Origin: a virus
Strand: one strand, 5' to 3'
Length of the DNA stretch: 20,071 bases
IMG/VR virus record: IMGVR_UViG_3300021368_001152
Coordinates: 1-20,071 of that record
Shown: positions 3,439-19,555 of the stretch, in pieces
How positions within the stretch are numbered: the stretch's first letter is position 1
Layout: each line of letters begins with the position of its first letter
Translations under genes and position numbers: made by a program
Notes under the pieces: generated by a model
The model's input: the letters and a program-made list of their open reading frames with translations, nothing else
What the model was told of the DNA's origin: nothing
The model's database searches: none

Positions 3439-4089
3439 GTGGTCAGACCCCGTAAAATATCAGATTTCAAACCTACATTAACCAATCTCGCTCAGACATC
3501 TCACTATCAAGTGATATTTGGTGGATTGCCTTTACCTTTGAGGCAACACCTTAGGGTAAGGGATGTTGATAATAGGTTTATGACCGAGACTGTTGGTTTA
3601 CTTTGCAATAGTGCTCTCCTGCCTGGTAGCAGACTTGCTACTGCTGATATCATGGACAACCATATGGGTGTCAATGAGCGGATGGCATACTCTAGAATGT
3701 ATTCTGAGATAAGACTAGAGTTCTATGTTGATAATGAATATCAGACGATGAAGTTCCTTGAGCACTGGATGGAGTTCATTGCTAACGGATCAACTAGTAC
3801 AAGTAATCGCCAGTCAAATAAGGATTATTATGTCAGGATGGAGTATCCTGAAGATTATAAGTGCGATGAAACAAAGATTATAAAGTTTGACAGAGACTAT
3901 GATAATGAGATAGAATATAAGTTTATTGGATTGTTTCCCATAGACCTTTCATCTACTCAGGTTACTTATGAAGGATCTCAAATTCTGAAGGCATCTGCTA
4001 CATTCAGTTTCGACAGATACTTGATGGGCAAGTACGATAGCTACTCAGTAAATAGAGGTACTTTTGGAAATATAATAAACCCCTTCTAA
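3439..4089 (+). CDS. 54: gp54-like baseplate tail tube initiator (gp19/gp54 tube fold)
   Basis: The 216-residue protein has the pattern of the T4 tube family (gp19, gp48, gp54). After TLTNLAQTSHYQVIFGGLP comes the strand-turn LLPGSRLATADI, comparable to the MPENRLGYE or LPAGIVEKI turn of gp54 and gp19, then EIRLEFYVDNEYQTMKFLEH, like the gp54 strand and helix, and a last strand FIGLFPIDLSSTQVTYEGSQ, comparable to FGGCIPVAVSSPELSYED in gp54. gp54 starts tube polymerisation on the baseplate, and I prefer it because the gene is in a baseplate cluster; the tube protein gp19 is about the same length and is the alternative. The start is GTG, since no in-frame ATG lies upstream; the Shine-Dalgarno is weak (AGG at 3428-3430). 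A late promoter motif precedes it. Confidence 0.7.
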   Translation: MVRPRKISDFKPTLTNLAQTSHYQVIFGGLPLPLRQHLRVRDVDNRFMTETVGLLCNSALLPGSRLATADIMDNHMGVNERMAYSRMYSEIRLEFYVDNEYQTMKFLEHWMEFIANGSTSTSNRQSNKDYYVRMEYPEDYKCDETKIIKFDRDYDNEIEYKFIGLFPIDLSSTQVTYEGSQILKASATFSFDRYLMGKYDSYSVNRGTFGNIINPF

Positions 4090-4112: not shown

Positions 4113-4829
4113 ATGCCTTTACCAAAGATTTCGACTCCGACTTATGAGTTGACGTTGCCTTCGACTAAGAAGAAAATCAAATACAGACCCTTTCTAGTTC
4201 GTGAAGAAAAGGTTCTTATCATCGCTATGGAAAGTCAAGATGAGAAGCAGATTGCTACGGCAGTCAAAGATGTAATCAAGAACTGTATTATCACTCGTGG
4301 TGTAAAAGTAGACGACCTTTCTACTTTTGATATTGAGTACCTCTTCCTTAATATCAGAGGTAAGTCTGTCGGCGAAGAAATTGAAGTTCTTGTAACTTGT
4401 CCTGATGATGGTGAGACACAGGTTCCTACTGTGATTAATCTTGATGATATTAAAGTCATTACTTCAAAGGATCATAATAGAGATATTGTCTTAGATGATG
4501 AACTCACACTTAGGATGAAGTATCCTTCTATGAGTGAGTTTGTAAAGAATAACTTTAGTGGTGGTGAGATTTCTGTTGAAGATACATTTGATGTTATTTC
4601 TGCTTGTGTAGAGCAAGTCTTTAGTGAAGAAGAATCCTGGACTACTGCTGATTGCAGTAAAAAAGAAATGTCCGAGTTCCTTGAGCAGTTGAGTTCTAAG
4701 CAATTCAAGGAGATTGAGAAGTTCTTTGAGACGATGCCTAAACTTTCTCATACAGTAAAGGTCAAAAATCCTAACACAGGTGTAGAGAATAAAATCGTTC
4801 TGGAAGGACTAAGCTCTTTTTTCGCGTAA
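4113..4829 (+). CDS. 26: gp26-like baseplate hub / tape-measure chaperone (frameshift 0-frame product)
   Basis: This 238-residue protein matches the T4 gp26 hub assembly protein family (208 residues in T4). The typical opening is PLPKISTPTYELTLPSTKKK and YRPFLVREEKVLIIAMESQD, followed by AVKDVIKNCI, FDIEYLFLNIRGKSVGE and a CPDDGE strand (residues about 2-110). The C-terminal half is helical (FVKNNF, EFLEQLSSKQFKEIEKFFETM). The family is related to phage Mu gp41-type chaperones that hold the tape measure during tail assembly. Just before the stop, codons TTT TTC form a U UUU UUC slippery heptamer (4817-4823) followed by a hairpin, so a share of ribosomes should shift to -1 and make a product of about 300 residues that includes the next ORF. 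No Shine-Dalgarno is evident. Confidence 0.82.
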   Translation: MPLPKISTPTYELTLPSTKKKIKYRPFLVREEKVLIIAMESQDEKQIATAVKDVIKNCIITRGVKVDDLSTFDIEYLFLNIRGKSVGEEIEVLVTCPDDGETQVPTVINLDDIKVITSKDHNRDIVLDDELTLRMKYPSMSEFVKNNFSGGEISVEDTFDVISACVEQVFSEEESWTTADCSKKEMSEFLEQLSSKQFKEIEKFFETMPKLSHTVKVKNPNTGVENKIVLEGLSSFFA

Positions 4830-4860
4830 GTATGGCTCATGAGGATCTTGAGTCATACTT
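4817..4860 (+). promoter_or_regulatory. programmed -1 ribosomal frameshift signal, gp26 to gp51-like ORF
   Basis: The slippery heptamer T TTT TTC (4817-4823) is exactly in gp26 frame (TTT at 4818, TTC at 4821). Four bases later a stem of 12 pairs begins: AAGTATGGCTCA (4828-4839) with TGAGTCATACTT (4849-4860), with one G-U pair and a nine-base loop. The -1 frame is open from the heptamer through CGC GTA AGT into the ATG at 4832 and on to 5014. The stem covers that ATG and the gp26 stop codon, and no Shine-Dalgarno precedes the ATG, so direct initiation looks poor. The predicted fusion is gp26 residues 1-237, then Arg-Val-Ser, then the 60-residue ORF. Confidence 0.85.
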
Positions 4861-5014
4861 TAAGACAAATTTTGCCCTGATACAGCACCATAAATACTCA
4901 TTAACAGAGCTTGAAAACATGATTCCGTGGGAGAGAGAAGTATATGTATCACTCCTACAACAATATATTGAAGAAGAGAATCTGAAAGCACAACAATCTG
5001 GATTAAATGGCTGA
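4832..5014 (+). CDS. 51: gp51-like chaperone C-terminal part, likely made by frameshift from gp26
   Basis: The 60-codon ORF has YFKTNFALIQHHKYSLTELE, MIPWEREVYVSLL and EEENLKAQQSG. It looks helical, as expected for the second frame of tape-measure chaperone pairs (lambda G/GT, Mu 41). Cyanophage relatives are often named gp51, baseplate hub assembly catalyst; T4 gp51 itself is much longer (249), so the name is loose. It is in the -1 frame relative to gp26, its ATG lies inside a 12-pair stem and has no Shine-Dalgarno, so I infer it is translated mainly as the C-terminus of a fusion of about 300 residues. It overlaps the next gene by eight bases. Confidence 0.72.
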   Translation: MAHEDLESYFKTNFALIQHHKYSLTELENMIPWEREVYVSLLQQYIEEENLKAQQSGLNG

Positions 5015-6341
5015 GTTTTCGTCCCCAATATTAGGAATGCAGGTTAGAAGGAATGTAATTCCTGCTAACCCTATTTTGGGGCGTCCAGAGCAAGTGTTTG
5101 GGGGTGGTCCAGATCCTCAGACCGCGATGGCGATAGCACAGAATAGAAATGCTATTAATAACTTAAGTGTAAATCTTGATGCTATTGCAGCTCAGATGAG
5201 TGTTGTTAGTCAATCACTCAATGTGATATCAATGCAAATAAATCAATCAAGTTTGATTGAAGAGAGACAGGCAAGAGAGAAAGAAAAACAAGAAAGAATA
5301 TTAGCAGAACAAGCACTAAGAGAAGGAAAAGAAAGTTTAGTAGAAAGAAAAATACAAAATGCCCTGGTAACACCCTTGCAGAAGATTGCTGCTAAAGCGC
5401 AAGGTCCTTTAGCAAATCTAGGTAATTTCTTTATGGTATTACTTGGTGGTGCTCTGGGTATGAAAATAATATCTACAATAGAAAAATTATCGGAAGATGG
5501 TGAACTTTCGATGGGAAATCTGTTTGATGAGATTAAAACGGATTTAGCAATTGCTGGTGGTATTCTTATTGGGTTAAGTGGAGGATTTTCACTTGTCCTA
5601 GGTACAATAACAAGTCTAGTTGGAAAACTAGGGAGTTTTCTTCTTCGCAATTTATTTCTAAGACCAATCAGACTTGTTTTTGATATTGCGAAAGGAATAT
5701 TGAGTGGGTTGAAAAATCAACTTGGTCGCCTTGTGGGAATAAGACCATCAGTTCCCGCACCTGCGGGTGGTGCTCGTGGTGTAAAACCTGGAAGACCTGG
5801 TGCTGGAATAAAAGCTATTGGTCCTGGAGGTATGGCTGTCGCTGCTCTTGTAGATATAGGATTTGGTGGTGAGTTTGATGATGCTATTGTAAGAGCTGTT
5901 GGTGGATCTGCTGGAGCATTTATTGGTGCCAAATCAGGTGCTATAGCGGGTGCTGTTTTTGGTCCAAAGGGTGCCGCTATTGGTGCATTCCTTGGTGGAA
6001 TCGCTGGTTTCATGGGAGGATCTAGCGCAGCGGATTATCTGTACAAAGAGACTGGATTAGATGATGCGATTGATTTTGATTATACCTTAAAAGATGTAGG
6101 ACTTCCTGATATTCCAAGTCTATTCCAATCTACGAAGAAAGAACGAAATCTAGGACAAGAAGAAGGAACTGCTTCAAGTGTTAATATTATTAATGTTGGT
6201 GGAGGAGGTGAATCTCAAGTACCAGAGATAAATGTTCCTGGTGAAAGCGCTAATAATCTTCCTAATGTGATAAGCACCAATTTTGATAATCCTTATTTGA
6301 TCAATTCATTTGTTCAGTATAATGTTGGGAGTATCGCCTGA
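5007..6341 (+). CDS. tape-measure-like tail protein (first of a pair)
   Basis: The 444-residue protein has no enzymatic motif. It begins with a Pro/Gly-rich stretch (1-38), followed by a long heptad-like helix rich in Gln, Glu and Arg (about 42-125; VSQSLNVISMQINQS, EERQAREKEKQERILAEQAL), hydrophobic helices (FFMVLLGGALGMKIISTIEK at 141-160; about 180-205), and a small-residue Gly/Ala segment with GxxxG-type spacing (about 295-340). Position directly after the frameshifted chaperone is the usual place for the tape measure (gp29 in T4), which fills the tail tube and sets its length. I infer this from place and composition, not from clear gp29 sequence identity. The KIIS-IEKL motif and the C-terminal pattern recur in the next gene. 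The stop overlaps the next start by one base (TGATG). Confidence 0.55.
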   Translation: MAEFSSPILGMQVRRNVIPANPILGRPEQVFGGGPDPQTAMAIAQNRNAINNLSVNLDAIAAQMSVVSQSLNVISMQINQSSLIEERQAREKEKQERILAEQALREGKESLVERKIQNALVTPLQKIAAKAQGPLANLGNFFMVLLGGALGMKIISTIEKLSEDGELSMGNLFDEIKTDLAIAGGILIGLSGGFSLVLGTITSLVGKLGSFLLRNLFLRPIRLVFDIAKGILSGLKNQLGRLVGIRPSVPAPAGGARGVKPGRPGAGIKAIGPGGMAVAALVDIGFGGEFDDAIVRAVGGSAGAFIGAKSGAIAGAVFGPKGAAIGAFLGGIAGFMGGSSAADYLYKETGLDDAIDFDYTLKDVGLPDIPSLFQSTKKERNLGQEEGTASSVNIINVGGGGESQVPEINVPGESANNLPNVISTNFDNPYLINSFVQYNVGSIA

Positions 6342-7942
6342 TGTTTTCGCCTATTAGAAAAACATTAACAGGAATAAAGAAATCTATGACCTCATTGGGT
6401 GAGAGTGTTGTTAATACTGCAAAGTCTGCAAATGAGGTATCGCAAACTTTGAAAGAGAATAATAGAGATAAATCTAGGTCTGTAGCTAATTCTGCAAAGT
6501 TTTTTAGGATAAGAAGAGAAGCAGTTAGGAGAAGAGAAAGAGAAGATTTGATAGAAGCGCAATCTAGTACTGGACCTTTCTCAAGAGCAGGTAAAGTTAT
6601 TACACAGAGCACCAGAGGATTCCTTGGTAGGATCATGGATTTTCTTGGTACTATAATCCTTGGATGGGCAGTAGTTAATCTACCCAAGATAATATCTGCT
6701 ATAGAAAAGTTAGTAGAAAGACTTCAAACATATTTTGGTATTTTAAGAGGATTCTTTACTGGAACTTATCAGTTAATATCTTCTTTTATTGGTGGTGTAA
6801 GAGATGTGATTGTAGATATTGCAACCTTAGATTTTGAAGGATTGAGAACCACAATCGACATCAGAATGAATGAGATGAATTCTGCTGTTGAAACAATGAG
6901 TTCTAATTATGATGAGTTAGTTACTGAACTTAGTGGAGATAGTAAAGATGTTTTAGAGAGAATGGGATTTGATCTCGATGACTTTAAAATTCCATTTTTA
7001 GGTGGTGGTGAAGAAGAACCCGAACCAGAAACAGAAGCAACTACAGAGGAAGAACCACAGCAGGAGGGTTCTGCAGAAACGATGGAGACCCCTACTGTGA
7101 ATTTAGGACAGTTGACTAATATTGTCCCGACAGGAAACTATAAAGGAATTGGTATAGGTGATCCTTCAATTCCTGGTACAACTAGTATGAGAGGTCCAAG
7201 ATGGGGTAGACATCATGCTGGTGTTGATATTGGAACTGGTGGTCAAAAGGGTTGGTATGTTGCATTTAGAATGGCAGGAACTGTTAGTTTAGTTCAGTAT
7301 CTTAGTGGTTATGGAAATACTGTTATTATTGAGGCTGGTGGGAAAGATTTCTTCTTTGCTCACCTAGCACGTCCATCAACATTAAGACCTGGAACAGCAT
7401 ATAATGGTGAGATTATTGGTGAGATTGGCAATACTGGTGGTTCAAAAGGAGAACACCTACACTTTGAAGTAAGAACTAAAGGTGGTGGTGGCGGAACTGA
7501 TATGGATCCTATGCCATATACTCAATATCTTCAAATTGGTAGATTGCAATCACCAGATGTAGAGACAAAAAAAGTTCGACTACCACCACAACAGTTAAAT
7601 CAAACACAAGAACAAAAAGACGCTACTAATATTCAAAGAAATCCTGATGGTTCTTTACCTGCTTCGTTGCAAGTAGATAGTCCATCATCAGCAGAAAAAG
7701 GATTTGATATTATGAATTTTATTGATACCAATATCATGAGACACTTTAGAGATGAAAAAGCCCTATCTAAACCAGTAAATAGAACGATAGCAACAAGGAA
7801 TATTATTATTAACAATCAGCAGCAATCTACTATAGTTCCTGTTCCTATAGTGATGGGGGGTGGTGGAAACCCTGTTGCTTCTGGTAGTGTAAATAATGAT
7901 ATGAGAAGTTTTCATAGTATGCAGGATTATAGGATAGGTTAA
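6341..7942 (+). CDS. tape-measure-like tail protein with M23 endopeptidase domain
   Basis: This 533-residue protein starts with a basic helical region (1-70), then a hydrophobic helix at about 93-125 (FLGTIILGWAVVNLPKIISA) resembling the one in the preceding protein. A Glu/Thr/Pro-rich linker follows (223-250). An M23 (LytM-type) zinc peptidase domain covers about 264-400: HHAGVDIG gives zinc ligands His292 and Asp296, FFAHLA gives His341, and EHLHFEVR gives His372 and His374. All five expected residues are present, so an active peptidoglycan endopeptidase is likely, used to open the cell wall during DNA injection. It has no signal peptide, so it should act in the virion rather than in lysis. 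TAATG overlap couples it to gp27. Tail lysin confidence is high; tape-measure role is inferred. Confidence 0.8.
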   Translation: MFSPIRKTLTGIKKSMTSLGESVVNTAKSANEVSQTLKENNRDKSRSVANSAKFFRIRREAVRRREREDLIEAQSSTGPFSRAGKVITQSTRGFLGRIMDFLGTIILGWAVVNLPKIISAIEKLVERLQTYFGILRGFFTGTYQLISSFIGGVRDVIVDIATLDFEGLRTTIDIRMNEMNSAVETMSSNYDELVTELSGDSKDVLERMGFDLDDFKIPFLGGGEEEPEPETEATTEEEPQQEGSAETMETPTVNLGQLTNIVPTGNYKGIGIGDPSIPGTTSMRGPRWGRHHAGVDIGTGGQKGWYVAFRMAGTVSLVQYLSGYGNTVIIEAGGKDFFFAHLARPSTLRPGTAYNGEIIGEIGNTGGSKGEHLHFEVRTKGGGGGTDMDPMPYTQYLQIGRLQSPDVETKKVRLPPQQLNQTQEQKDATNIQRNPDGSLPASLQVDSPSSAEKGFDIMNFIDTNIMRHFRDEKALSKPVNRTIATRNIIINNQQQSTIVPVPIVMGGGGNPVASGSVNNDMRSFHSMQDYRIG

Positions 7943-16138: not shown

Positions 16139-19100
16139 ATGTCAGAAACAAGGAAACCGACGCAAAGATATCTCAGTGGTAGAGTAAAGATTGCTGGTAC
16201 TGAAGCATTAGCTACAGACAGACACCTTTATGTTGATCCTGGTCAAGTAGAACCCAACTTAGGTTATGTTGGGGAAAAGAATATACCAATCGCTGACAAA
16301 TATTATAATCTAGTAACCATCGAGAATGGCGGTACTTATGATAGGTATTGGCAAGAAACTTCTGGATTAATACCAGGCGGTATTACTATATTTGATGAAG
16401 GCACTCAGGTTGGTTCTGCAAATAGTGTTACTAAACTAAACTTCGTTGGTGCTGCAGTAACTGCTACTGTAAGTGGATCAATTTCTACAATTACAATTTC
16501 AAATAATGCTCAAGTTTCTGTAGGAACGGAACCCCCTGCAGGTGCAGAGCAAGGTGACTTATGGTGGGAAAGTGATGTTGGAGAATTGTTTGTTTATTAT
16601 GAGGATGCTGATAGTAATCAGTGGGTAGAAACCTCTGGTGGTAGTGAAACTGTAGTTATATCTGATGATCCACCCCCAAGTCCAAATGTTGGTGATTTAT
16701 GGTGGGAAAGCGATACTGAACAATTAAGAATTTACTATGATGATGGTGTTAATCCACCAGAGTGGGTTTTTGCTAATCAAGGTGTTACTCAATTTTGGAT
16801 TAAAAATGATACTGGAATTCACACTGTTGGAAATGTAGGTGTTGGAACTACAACCGCAAACGGTGCAGCACATCCTGATAATGAGTTTATTCTCAGTGCT
16901 GGTATTGTTACTGCCAATTACTATTATGGTGATGGTTCTAACTTAACTGGTATTAATTTTGGTGGTTCTGGGGGAAAATGGGTACAAAATGATGCTGGTA
17001 TTCATACCCTATCTGCTGTTGGTGTTGGAACTACCAATCCACTATCACCAGTTCATCCAGATAATAATACGATTTTCCATGCAGGTATTGTTACTGCTAA
17101 TCAGTATTATGGTGATGGATCTACATTAACTGGTGTTGGTGGATCAGTTGGTATTGGAACCACTGCACCAGTAGACCCAGATGCTGGTGATTTGTGGTGG
17201 AATAATTCGGATGGTAAGTTAGCAATTTATTATAATGACCATGATGGTTCTCCATCAGCACAGTGGGTTCAGGTGTCTGAAGGTCCTATGGGACGCCAAG
17301 GTTTCCAAGGTGTCCAGGGTGCTGCAGGTCCACAAGGATTCCAGGGTGATGTTGGTGCCGATGGTGACGATGGTGCTCAAGGTGTCCAAGGTGCTCCTGG
17401 TGTAGGAGCTCAGGGTGTCCAAGGTTCTCAAGGTTTCCAAGGTGTTCAGGGTGCTCAAGGCGTTCAAGGTGCTTCAGGTGCTGGCACTCAGGGTGCGCAG
17501 GGTATTCCTGGAACAAATGCTGGATTGGATATCTCAACTGGAGCACCATCCAGCCCACAAAATGGTGATCTTTGGTGGGATAATGATAATGCCGTCTTAT
17601 CAGTTTATTATGATGATGGAATTGGTACTCCATCAGCACAGTGGGTAGAGATTAGTGCTGGTCCTGAAGGTCATCAAGGCGTTCAGGGTGCTCAAGGTGA
17701 GCAAGGTGCTCCTTCAAATGTTGCTGGTCCTCAAGGTGAACAAGGTTTCCAAGGTCGCCAGGGTGCTCAAGGCAGACAAGGTGCTACAGGAAATCAAGGA
17801 TCACAAGGTCAACAAGGTGCTATAGGTGCTCAAGGGGCTCAGGGTGCTCAAGGTAGACAAGGTGCTCAAGGTAATGCTGGACCCGGTTCAACAGTTGCTG
17901 GACCTCAAGGTGAACAGGGTGCCCAAGGTCTCCAAGGTCTTCAAGGTGTCCAGGGTGCTCAAGGTGAGCAAGGTGCTCAAGGCGAACAGGGTTTACTTGG
18001 TATTACTGGACCTCAAGGTTTCCAAGGTGTCCAGGGTGCTACAGGTCCTCAAGGTGTACAGGGTGCTGCAGGTCCTCAAGGTCTTCAAGGTGTTCAGGGC
18101 AATCAAGGTGTCCAAGGTGCTCAAGGTGAGCAAGGTGCTCAAGGTAATACATCAGCTCAAGGTGATAAAGGTGGATTAAGATATACATTTGTTACTAATA
18201 CTGGAACCAATAACACAAGTGCTGGTCAAGTAAGATTTAACAATTCTACTTTTAATAATATTACCATTTTAGGTCTTCATAATACCGATGCTGATGGAAC
18301 TGACCAAGAGCCTTATATTAAAACTTGGGATGATGGTGGATCTTCAAATGATAAAGGTATCGTTATCATTAAGTCCAATACTAATGGTGATGCAACTTTT
18401 GCTACTTTTAGGATTACTGGTGTTGATAGTGGAAGTCCACTAGGAACTAGATCTAGATGGAGTGTAACACCTTTAAGTGGATCTATTCCCTCTAATGGTG
18501 AAGAGGTAGTCGTTGAGTTTATTCAAAAGGGTGATACTGGCGCTCAGGGTGCTCAAGGTGCTCAAGGTGTTCAAGGTGCTAATGGTCCTCAAGGTGTCCA
18601 AGGTGCTCAAGGTGTCCAGGGTTCTAGTGGTCAAGGTTCTCAAGGTTTCCAGGGAGTACAAGGTGCTCAAGGTTTCCAAGGTGTTCAAGGTGCTTCTGGT
18701 AGTGGGTCTCCTGGAGGCACTGGTCCTCAAGGTTTCCAAGGTGTTCAAGGTGCTACTGGTTCTGGTTCTACAGTTCCTGGTCCTCAAGGTGAACAAGGTT
18801 TCCAAGGTGTTCAAGGTGCTACTGGTTCTGGTTCTACAGTTCCTGGTCCTCAAGGTGAACAAGGTTTCCAAGGTGTTCAAGGTGCTTCTGGTAGTGGGTC
18901 TCCTGGAGGCACTGGTCCTCAAGGTGAACAAGGTTTCCAAGGTGAACAAGGTGCTGCTGGTGGATCTGGAGGCACTGGTCCTCAAGGTGTCCAAGGTGCT
19001 CAAGGTCGCCAGGGTGCTACTGGTTCTGGTTCTACAGTTCCTGGTCCTCAAGGTTCTCAGGGTGTCCAGGGTGCTCAAGGTGAGCAAGGTGCTCCTGGTA

Positions 19101-19555
19101 ATTCGGGTCCAGGAAATTCTATTACAGTATCAGCTACAACGGACGCATCTACTTTCCCAGTTCTTGTTACAAATAGTTCTGCAGGAACTTACACTCCATT
19201 GGTGGGATCTGAATTTACATTTGACGAATCAACTGGTAATTTCACCGCCACTGGTACAGTCACATCAGGATCTGATATTAGTTTAAAAACAAATATTACT
19301 AATATTGAAAACGCTCTAGATAAATTGTGTCAATTGCGTGGTATTGAATTTGATTATAAAGAAAGTGGTAGGCATAACATAGGTGTTATTGCGCAGGAAG
19401 TTGAAGAAGTTTTCCCAGATCTTGTTATTGGAAATGACCCAAAAACAGTTGCTTATGGTAATTTGACTGCAGTTCTTATTGAGGCAGTCAAAGAACTTAG
19501 AGAGGAAGTATCTTCATTAAAACAAGAGATAAATACGTTGAAAGGGAAAATATAA
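16139..19555 (+). CDS. collagen-like tail fibre with S74 intramolecular chaperone
   Basis: The 1138-residue fibre is modular. Four modules with the core DLWW then YYxD and QWV occur near nt 16556, 16694, 17189 and 17566. Two modules of the form NDxGIHT, VGVGTT, HPDN, AGIVTAN, YYGDGS, LTG occupy about 16792-16960 and 16978-17140. Collagen-like Gly-X-Gln triplets fill nt 17282-17520, 17660-18174 and 18530-19118. A globular insert (18175-18525; LRYTFVTNTG, VRFNN) separates the second and third. The end is a peptidase S74 domain: SDISLKTNI, GVIAQEVEEVFPDLV, VAYGNLTAVLIEAVKELREE. Ser1045 and Lys1050 have the spacing of the self-cleaving Ser/Lys pair of endosialidase-type chaperones, so the last about 94 residues should be cut off after trimerisation. 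A final coiled coil (EVSSLKQEINTLKGKI) fits trimer formation. Role: host receptor binding (inferred). Confidence 0.85.
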   Translation: MSETRKPTQRYLSGRVKIAGTEALATDRHLYVDPGQVEPNLGYVGEKNIPIADKYYNLVTIENGGTYDRYWQETSGLIPGGITIFDEGTQVGSANSVTKLNFVGAAVTATVSGSISTITISNNAQVSVGTEPPAGAEQGDLWWESDVGELFVYYEDADSNQWVETSGGSETVVISDDPPPSPNVGDLWWESDTEQLRIYYDDGVNPPEWVFANQGVTQFWIKNDTGIHTVGNVGVGTTTANGAAHPDNEFILSAGIVTANYYYGDGSNLTGINFGGSGGKWVQNDAGIHTLSAVGVGTTNPLSPVHPDNNTIFHAGIVTANQYYGDGSTLTGVGGSVGIGTTAPVDPDAGDLWWNNSDGKLAIYYNDHDGSPSAQWVQVSEGPMGRQGFQGVQGAAGPQGFQGDVGADGDDGAQGVQGAPGVGAQGVQGSQGFQGVQGAQGVQGASGAGTQGAQGIPGTNAGLDISTGAPSSPQNGDLWWDNDNAVLSVYYDDGIGTPSAQWVEISAGPEGHQGVQGAQGEQGAPSNVAGPQGEQGFQGRQGAQGRQGATGNQGSQGQQGAIGAQGAQGAQGRQGAQGNAGPGSTVAGPQGEQGAQGLQGLQGVQGAQGEQGAQGEQGLLGITGPQGFQGVQGATGPQGVQGAAGPQGLQGVQGNQGVQGAQGEQGAQGNTSAQGDKGGLRYTFVTNTGTNNTSAGQVRFNNSTFNNITILGLHNTDADGTDQEPYIKTWDDGGSSNDKGIVIIKSNTNGDATFATFRITGVDSGSPLGTRSRWSVTPLSGSIPSNGEEVVVEFIQKGDTGAQGAQGAQGVQGANGPQGVQGAQGVQGSSGQGSQGFQGVQGAQGFQGVQGASGSGSPGGTGPQGFQGVQGATGSGSTVPGPQGEQGFQGVQGATGSGSTVPGPQGEQGFQGVQGASGSGSPGGTGPQGEQGFQGEQGAAGGSGGTGPQGVQGAQGRQGATGSGSTVPGPQGSQGVQGAQGEQGAPGNSGPGNSITVSATTDASTFPVLVTNSSAGTYTPLVGSEFTFDESTGNFTATGTVTSGSDISLKTNITNIENALDKLCQLRGIEFDYKESGRHNIGVIAQEVEEVFPDLVIGNDPKTVAYGNLTAVLIEAVKELREEVSSLKQEINTLKGKI
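17282..17520 (+). repeat. collagen-like Gly-X-Gln region 1
   Basis: Codons read [18 protein letters not shown] and so on, with a few Asp and Pro variants (GADGDDG, GAPGVG). Gln fills most third positions of the triplet; Pro is rare. The DNA is a degenerate nine-base repeat based on GGTGCTCAA and GGTTTCCAA. Confidence 0.9.
17660..18174 (+). repeat. collagen-like Gly-X-Gln region 2
   Basis: The longest triplet run, with GAQ, GEQ, GVQ, GRQ and GLQ units and one break at GPGSTVAGP (about 17880-17910). It ends in GAQGNTSAQGDKGG before the globular insert. Confidence 0.9.
18530..19118 (+). repeat. collagen-like region 3 with 60/66-base tandem units
   Basis: Gly-X-Gln triplets interrupted by Ser/Thr/Gly linkers. 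Long units repeat in tandem: GGTTTCCAAGGTGTTCAAGG begins at 18671, 18731, 18797 and 18863, spacing 60, 66 and 66 bases (20 and 22 codons). The block beginning at 18671 recurs at 18863 (192 bases). The linkers GSGSTVPGP and GSGSPGGTGP break the triplet register, so each unit is a short collagen segment plus a hinge. Confidence 0.9.
19271..19552 (+). other. peptidase S74 self-cleaving chaperone domain
   Basis: The domain starts at Ser1045 (TCT at 19271) of the fibre and contains Lys1050, the pair that drives self-release in S74 domains. GVIAQEVE and AYGNLTAVLIEAVKEL are signature segments. Cleavage is expected just before Ser1045. Confidence 0.85.

Follow-up and report, generated by a model that had tools for sequence, protein, structure and literature searches.

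A probable programmed -1 frameshift joins gp26 to a gp51-like domain in marine T4-like viruses

The gp26 gene of a marine T4-like virus and the short gp51-like open reading frame (ORF) that follows it very probably form a single gene, in which a programmed -1 ribosomal frameshift extends a putative short tail assembly chaperone into a long one. The window analyzed here is a complete 20,071-base IMG/VR virus record, which is itself a fragment and contains one copy of gp26. The frameshift had been proposed in an original prediction made for this DNA, and comparison with relatives now supports it through a conserved slippery heptamer, an open -1 frame, a covarying hairpin and loss of the start codon of the second ORF. 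The occurrence of slippage, its frequency and the binding partners of the two protein forms are what we infer from these features.

The gp26 gene (4113-4829, plus strand, as are the slip site, the hairpin, the gp51-like ORF and the two flanking genes) encodes 238 amino acids. In profile searches its product matches PF12322 (T4_baseplate; 2.6e-76) and phrog_150 (7.8e-83). The gene ends with AGC TCT TTT TTC GCG TAA. The predicted heptamer T TTT TTC is present there in the register of gp26 (4817-4823), its TTT and TTC being codons 236 and 237 of the 0 frame. It had been placed six bases before the stop, which holds for the last base of the TAA codon (4827-4829); only three bases (GCG) separate it from the stop codon itself. 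Read in the -1 frame, the junction is TTT TTT CGC GTA AGT ATG GCT CAT and continues free of stops, as predicted, to a TGA at 5012-5014. The -1 extension (4823-5014) thus comprises Arg-Val-Ser and the 60-codon gp51-like ORF (4832-5014), which in our interpretation encodes the long form's C-terminal domain. The expected fusion has 237 + 3 + 60 = 300 residues, in agreement with the predicted size of about 300. The sequence TTTTTTC is depleted in the window; the slip site is the only copy on either strand, versus 6.5 expected. The probability that a strict in-register slippery heptamer occurs by chance within the last 10 codons is about 0.03, and that for TTTTTTH is about 0.006.

The gp51-like ORF matches phrog_634, annotated as "baseplate hub assembly catalyst" (5.5e-28, profile search). 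It also matches phrog_150, the gp26 family (1.6e-5), at profile positions 239-278 of 282. Because this is the last part of the phrog_150 profile, other phages carry both parts in one chain. Immediately upstream of gp26 is a gene of a tail-tube family (3439-4089; phrog_45, 2.7e-40; PF23849, 3.5e-13), which is gp54-like by synteny, gp54 being annotated 5' of gp26 in phages phiM9 and S13. The ORF downstream (5007-6341) overlaps the end of the gp51-like ORF and is tape-measure-like by weak matches to phrog_3405 (4.2e-6) and phrog_167 (tape measure; 3.5e-4). Two successive ORFs of 444 and 533 amino acids occupy 5007-7942; each weakly matches phrog_3405, and the second has an M23 peptidase domain. 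A BLASTP comparison of these two ORFs with each other gave no significant match. Tape measure function may be split over the two.

In the proposed mechanism, most ribosomes would terminate at 4827 and release the 238-residue short chaperone. A minority would stall on U UUU UUC, where a hairpin beginning four bases 3' (about eight bases for its core) would aid stalling and slippage. The ribosome would move back one base in both of its sites, and slipped ribosomes would continue to 5014 to produce the 300-residue long form.

Scans of viral contigs, together with named phages, yielded 177 gp26 loci representing 121 distinct junctions; viral-contig scans using the Vibrio and Caulobacter gp26 proteins as queries contributed few loci. 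The sequence T TTT TTN lies just before the last gp26 codon in 119 of the 121 distinct junctions (115 TTTTTTC, three TTTTTTT and one TTTTTTG). The stop codon may be TAA, TAG or TGA in relatives, and its position is fixed. Phages with the heptamer include members of the Kyanoviridae, Vibrio phages VH7D and EniLVp02, Aeromonas phage AS-szw, Caulobacter phage Cr30, Sinorhizobium phage phiM9, Stenotrophomonas phage Bhz51 and Desulfovibrio phage 7757. Cronobacter phage S13 and Prochlorococcus phage P-SSM4, which were added after the 121-junction set, have the same arrangement, and in Methylophilales phage Melnitz-1 a T TTT TTT directly adjoins the stop and the -1 frame is open. The codon preceding the Phe-Phe pair specifies Ser, Ala, Asp or Asn, and its third base is always T. 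Phe-Phe itself is written TTT TTC in 115 distinct junctions. By comparison, the genes of the window contain 13 further Phe-Phe pairs, of which only one is written this way and none forms the heptamer. A variable codon that always ends in T, followed by a fixed TTT TTC, implies a constraint on the nucleotides beyond that on the protein.

The junction alignment, which the original prediction had named as a check, speaks strongly in its favor: the heptamer is conserved, the -1 frame is open, and the stem has compensatory changes. The two refuting observations that the prediction had named for homologues were looked for in relatives and did not overturn it: among the homologues compared at this junction, the heptamer is missing only in very distant phages of the Ackermannviridae type, and none of those with T TTT TTN has a -1 stop between the heptamer and the domain. 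Seven Ackermannviridae-type gp26 ends (L087, L190, L191, L192, L093, L197 and L193) have the form NTT TTC NNN plus stop, with no X XXY YYZ sequence. In all seven the -1 frame continues without a stop into a gp51-like domain that often has no start codon, and the NTT TTC ends are possibly a reduced slip site.

The hairpin in the window has the predicted form, with a 12-pair stem (4828-4839 paired with 4849-4860), one G-U pair (4835-4853), a nine-base loop and a four-base spacer after the heptamer. The ATG of the gp51-like ORF (4832-4834) is within the 5' arm, as had been noted. The predicted energy is -16 kcal/mol (z = -3.69), and none of 200 shuffled sequences folds as well. When 42-base windows were folded from -243 to +297 about the heptamer (540 bases) in the 121 junctions, the mean z score was -3.6 just 3' of the heptamer and close to 0 over almost all of the remaining profile, with a single further clear dip, to a mean of -1.4 at about +213. 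In the 72 distinct junctions that bear the ATG, the window's stem is paired in 88.7% of cells, versus 28-41% for versions of the stem slid along the alignment. Two-sided compensatory changes are found in 23 cells, versus 4.0 in shuffled alignments (0 of 500 reaching this number); the shuffles ignore relatedness, and these counts are therefore support rather than a probability. The best covariation exchanges T-A for G-C between alignment columns 21 and 35 (4837-4851 in the window), where the silent third base of an Ala codon (GCT or GCG) tracks GAG or GCG on the opposite arm.

The four-base spacer had seemed short, a worry that is eased by the poor conservation of the basal pairs. Because these pairs are the least preserved and the core begins at about the ATG, the effective distance between heptamer and stem is probably 7-8 bases. 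A single stem common to all cyanophages was rejected, as in the S-PM2 group an equally good hairpin forms in another pairing register. The hairpin is thus conserved as a feature rather than pair for pair. Its stem is weak or absent in some lineages without a start codon (L080, L131, L145 and L163), so the hairpin is usual, not strictly required. An Rfam search of the window gave no match. A second hairpin (5042-5070; GGTTAG A AGGAAT GTA ATTCCT G CTAACC; z = -3.82), to which the dip at about +213 belongs, lies where the tape-measure-like ORF begins, and is preserved, with compensatory-looking changes, in close relatives only.

Perhaps the hairpin mainly locks the ATG against separate synthesis of the domain, and the heptamer drives frameshifting alone. 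This proposal bears only on what the hairpin does and does not conflict with the frameshift. In raw counts, hairpins of -8 kcal/mol or better are found in 95% of ATG-bearing junctions and in 67% of those without ATG, and some start-less lineages have no stem at all. However, strong stems are retained in several start-less lineages (among them L144 and L156), and on a tree the comparison reduces to five independent pairs and is not significant. The apparent dependence of the stem on the ATG was therefore kept as suggestive only, and we consider a predominantly locking role unlikely. A combined role is also doubtful, if a little less so: the hairpin might both stimulate slippage and lock the ATG, and lineages without the ATG would then be free to lose the stem. 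If this were true, the gp51 domain would be made only within the long form.

Evidence that the domain is read by frameshifting comes from the frame itself. Every junction examined has an open -1 frame, and the domain is 53-64 codons long in all complete ones. Downstream of the heptamer, the entropies at -1 codon positions 1, 2 and 3 are 0.53, 0.38 and 1.04, which is the pattern of a coding frame. An ATG is nevertheless absent from the start of the domain in about a quarter of the distinct junctions. Three examples, L080, AS-szw (L084) and Desulfovibrio phage 7757 (L089), have no ATG, GTG or TTG there, and their domains are intact. On a tree built from 128 fused proteins, the state of the start codon has changed at least nine times. 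Repeated loss of the start codon while the -1 frame stays open means that separate translation cannot be the general route. Judged by sequence, fusion is the only way in which a start-less ORF can yield the complete gp51 domain.

Termination at the gp26 stop followed by reinitiation at the ATG at 4832 would instead make gp51 a separate protein and the heptamer incidental. The ATG lies two bases past the stop in the window, an equivalent ATG is present in 79 of the first 80 loci, and gp51 is annotated as a gene of its own in P-SSM2, S-PM2 and others. However, the many losses of the start codon from a frame that remains open and coding, the preservation of the heptamer down to synonymous codon choice, the burial of the ATG in a stable hairpin and the presence of the same two parts in one chain in T4-type phages all argue against this explanation, and we regard it as highly improbable. 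The ATG was correctly reported to lack a Shine-Dalgarno sequence, but this argument was dropped as weak because the ATG of gp26 also lacks one. Where the ATG survives, some separate gp51 may be made by reinitiation in addition to the frameshift product. Slippage of RNA polymerase on the six-T run, a process that T runs can cause when they are longer, is the least credible source of the frame change, as six is short for such slippage, the run is nearly always exactly six (seven in three junctions), the hairpin is conserved at a ribosomal distance, and in Ackermannviridae the run falls to four T residues with the -1 frame still open.

Phage T4 contains the same protein families as the window, and in both cases the long form corresponds to the short form plus the gp51 domain. 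Genes 26 and 51 of T4 are adjacent and on opposite strands. Both T4 proteins match PF12322 (8.8e-64 for gp26 and 3.9e-52 for gp51). T4 gp51 covers positions 13-280 of 282 in phrog_150 as well as phrog_634, whereas T4 gp26 covers only positions 14-235 of phrog_150. A profile comparison of gp26 with T4-type gp51 gives an E value of 1.6e-10, and the gp51 domain of the window aligns to the C terminus of T4-type gp51 (residues 210-245; E = 1.8e-5). By these matches, T4 gp51 is the long form in one ORF and a paralogue of T4 gp26, the short form. The suggestion that separately annotated gp51 might be the C-terminal part of gp26 is confirmed by T4 gp51, in which one chain has an N-terminal part resembling gp26 and, after it, this domain. 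T4 makes the long form from a separate gene, whereas in the window the two parts would be joined by frameshifting. T4 gene 26 does not have the heptamer, and ends with TTC TTT GAG TTA CTA TAA; in T4-type gene 26 generally, Phe-Phe is usually retained, spelled TTC TTT, and forms no heptamer. Phages that make the long form from a second gene have no slip site here. Because the frameshift form is widespread, gene duplication presumably replaced the frameshift, and not the reverse.

An AlphaFold2 model of gp26 has a pLDDT of 86. Its residues 1-90 match 3fgx (rbstp2171; Z = 7.9), the HK97 chaperone 2ob9 (gp13; Z = 7.8) and 3klu (YqbN; Z = 7.2); the next structure has a Z of 4.8. Both 3fgx and 3klu are chaperone-type proteins. 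These matches come from a second look at Foldseek candidates with VIA-align, the HK97 protein having ranked 8-9 in Foldseek. Foldseek alone gave no match with E ≤ 0.001, and searching the PDB by sequence with profiles of gp26 and T4 gp51 returned nothing informative. The one-chain T4-type gp51, folded as the long form, matches 2ob9 with a Z of only 3.7. In the model, the N-terminal part of gp26 has a fold of the tail assembly chaperone type (HK97 TAC/YqbN); a Z just under 8 over about 90 residues can also reflect a common arrangement.

In lambda, gpG forms a coat on the tape measure, the tube protein is recruited by gpGT, and neither chaperone is found in the virion (PMC5009743). By analogy, the gp26 short form might coat the tape measure and the C-terminal domain of the long form might recruit the tail tube, with neither form in the virion. 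Like gpG/gpGT, the window has an in-register X XXY YYZ near the end of the short form, and its -1 frame is open and codes for a C-terminal domain that is conserved. It also shares a downstream RNA structure, an element that is common, not universal, in such systems, and that is absent in some relatives of the window. Unlike lambda, the window has U UUU UUC in place of lambda's heptamer, a strong covarying hairpin, and a chaperone of the gp26 family (PF12322) from contractile-tailed phages.

A 2016 review (PMC5009743) stated that long-tailed phages share a conserved frameshift, "except T4". Vladimirov, Gautam and Davidson (Virology 2022, 566:9-15) are cited for T4 gp26 and gp51 as short and long chaperones (PMC10885494, PMC12846349), and for T4-like phages that, in place of a frameshift, have one gene for a short protein and another for a long fusion (PMC10885494). 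Poly-T slip signals in T4-like chaperone genes are reportedly known (PMC10885494, PMC12846349). By these citing papers, the general idea of T4-like chaperones, some with poly-T slip sites and some with two genes, is prior art. In Vandenendeviridae and Andersonviridae, as in the window, a poly-T -1 frameshift is described and the downstream ORF is annotated as a separate hypothetical gene; these are another phage family, the motif is GTTTTT, and the excerpted report mentions no covarying hairpin (PMC12846349). As far as the literature showed, what this analysis adds is the scale of the comparison, a hairpin that covaries, recurrent loss of the start codon with the resulting start-less gp51 ORFs, and an explanation for "truncated" cyanophage gp51.

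The gp51 proteins of cyanophages and marine vibriophages have been reported to be reduced, and Aeh1 to lack gp51 (PMC3037559). A frameshift explains the reduced proteins, and a start-less -1 ORF such as that of AS-szw would account for the missing one by analogy. In many marine T4-like records, gp26 and gp51 would thus be mis-annotated as two genes, or a start-less gp51 overlooked. The tail assembly chaperone scheme now has a place for T4 gp51, which had long been described as an essential hub assembly protein whose function was unknown (PMC3004832). The phages also offer a natural comparison, in that most lineages obtain the protein pair by frameshifting and T4 obtains it by gene duplication. 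Elsewhere in the window, a long ORF (16139-19555) with collagen-like GxQG repeats is probably a tail fiber gene; because of these repeats, the same region has many mechanical ORFs in other frames.
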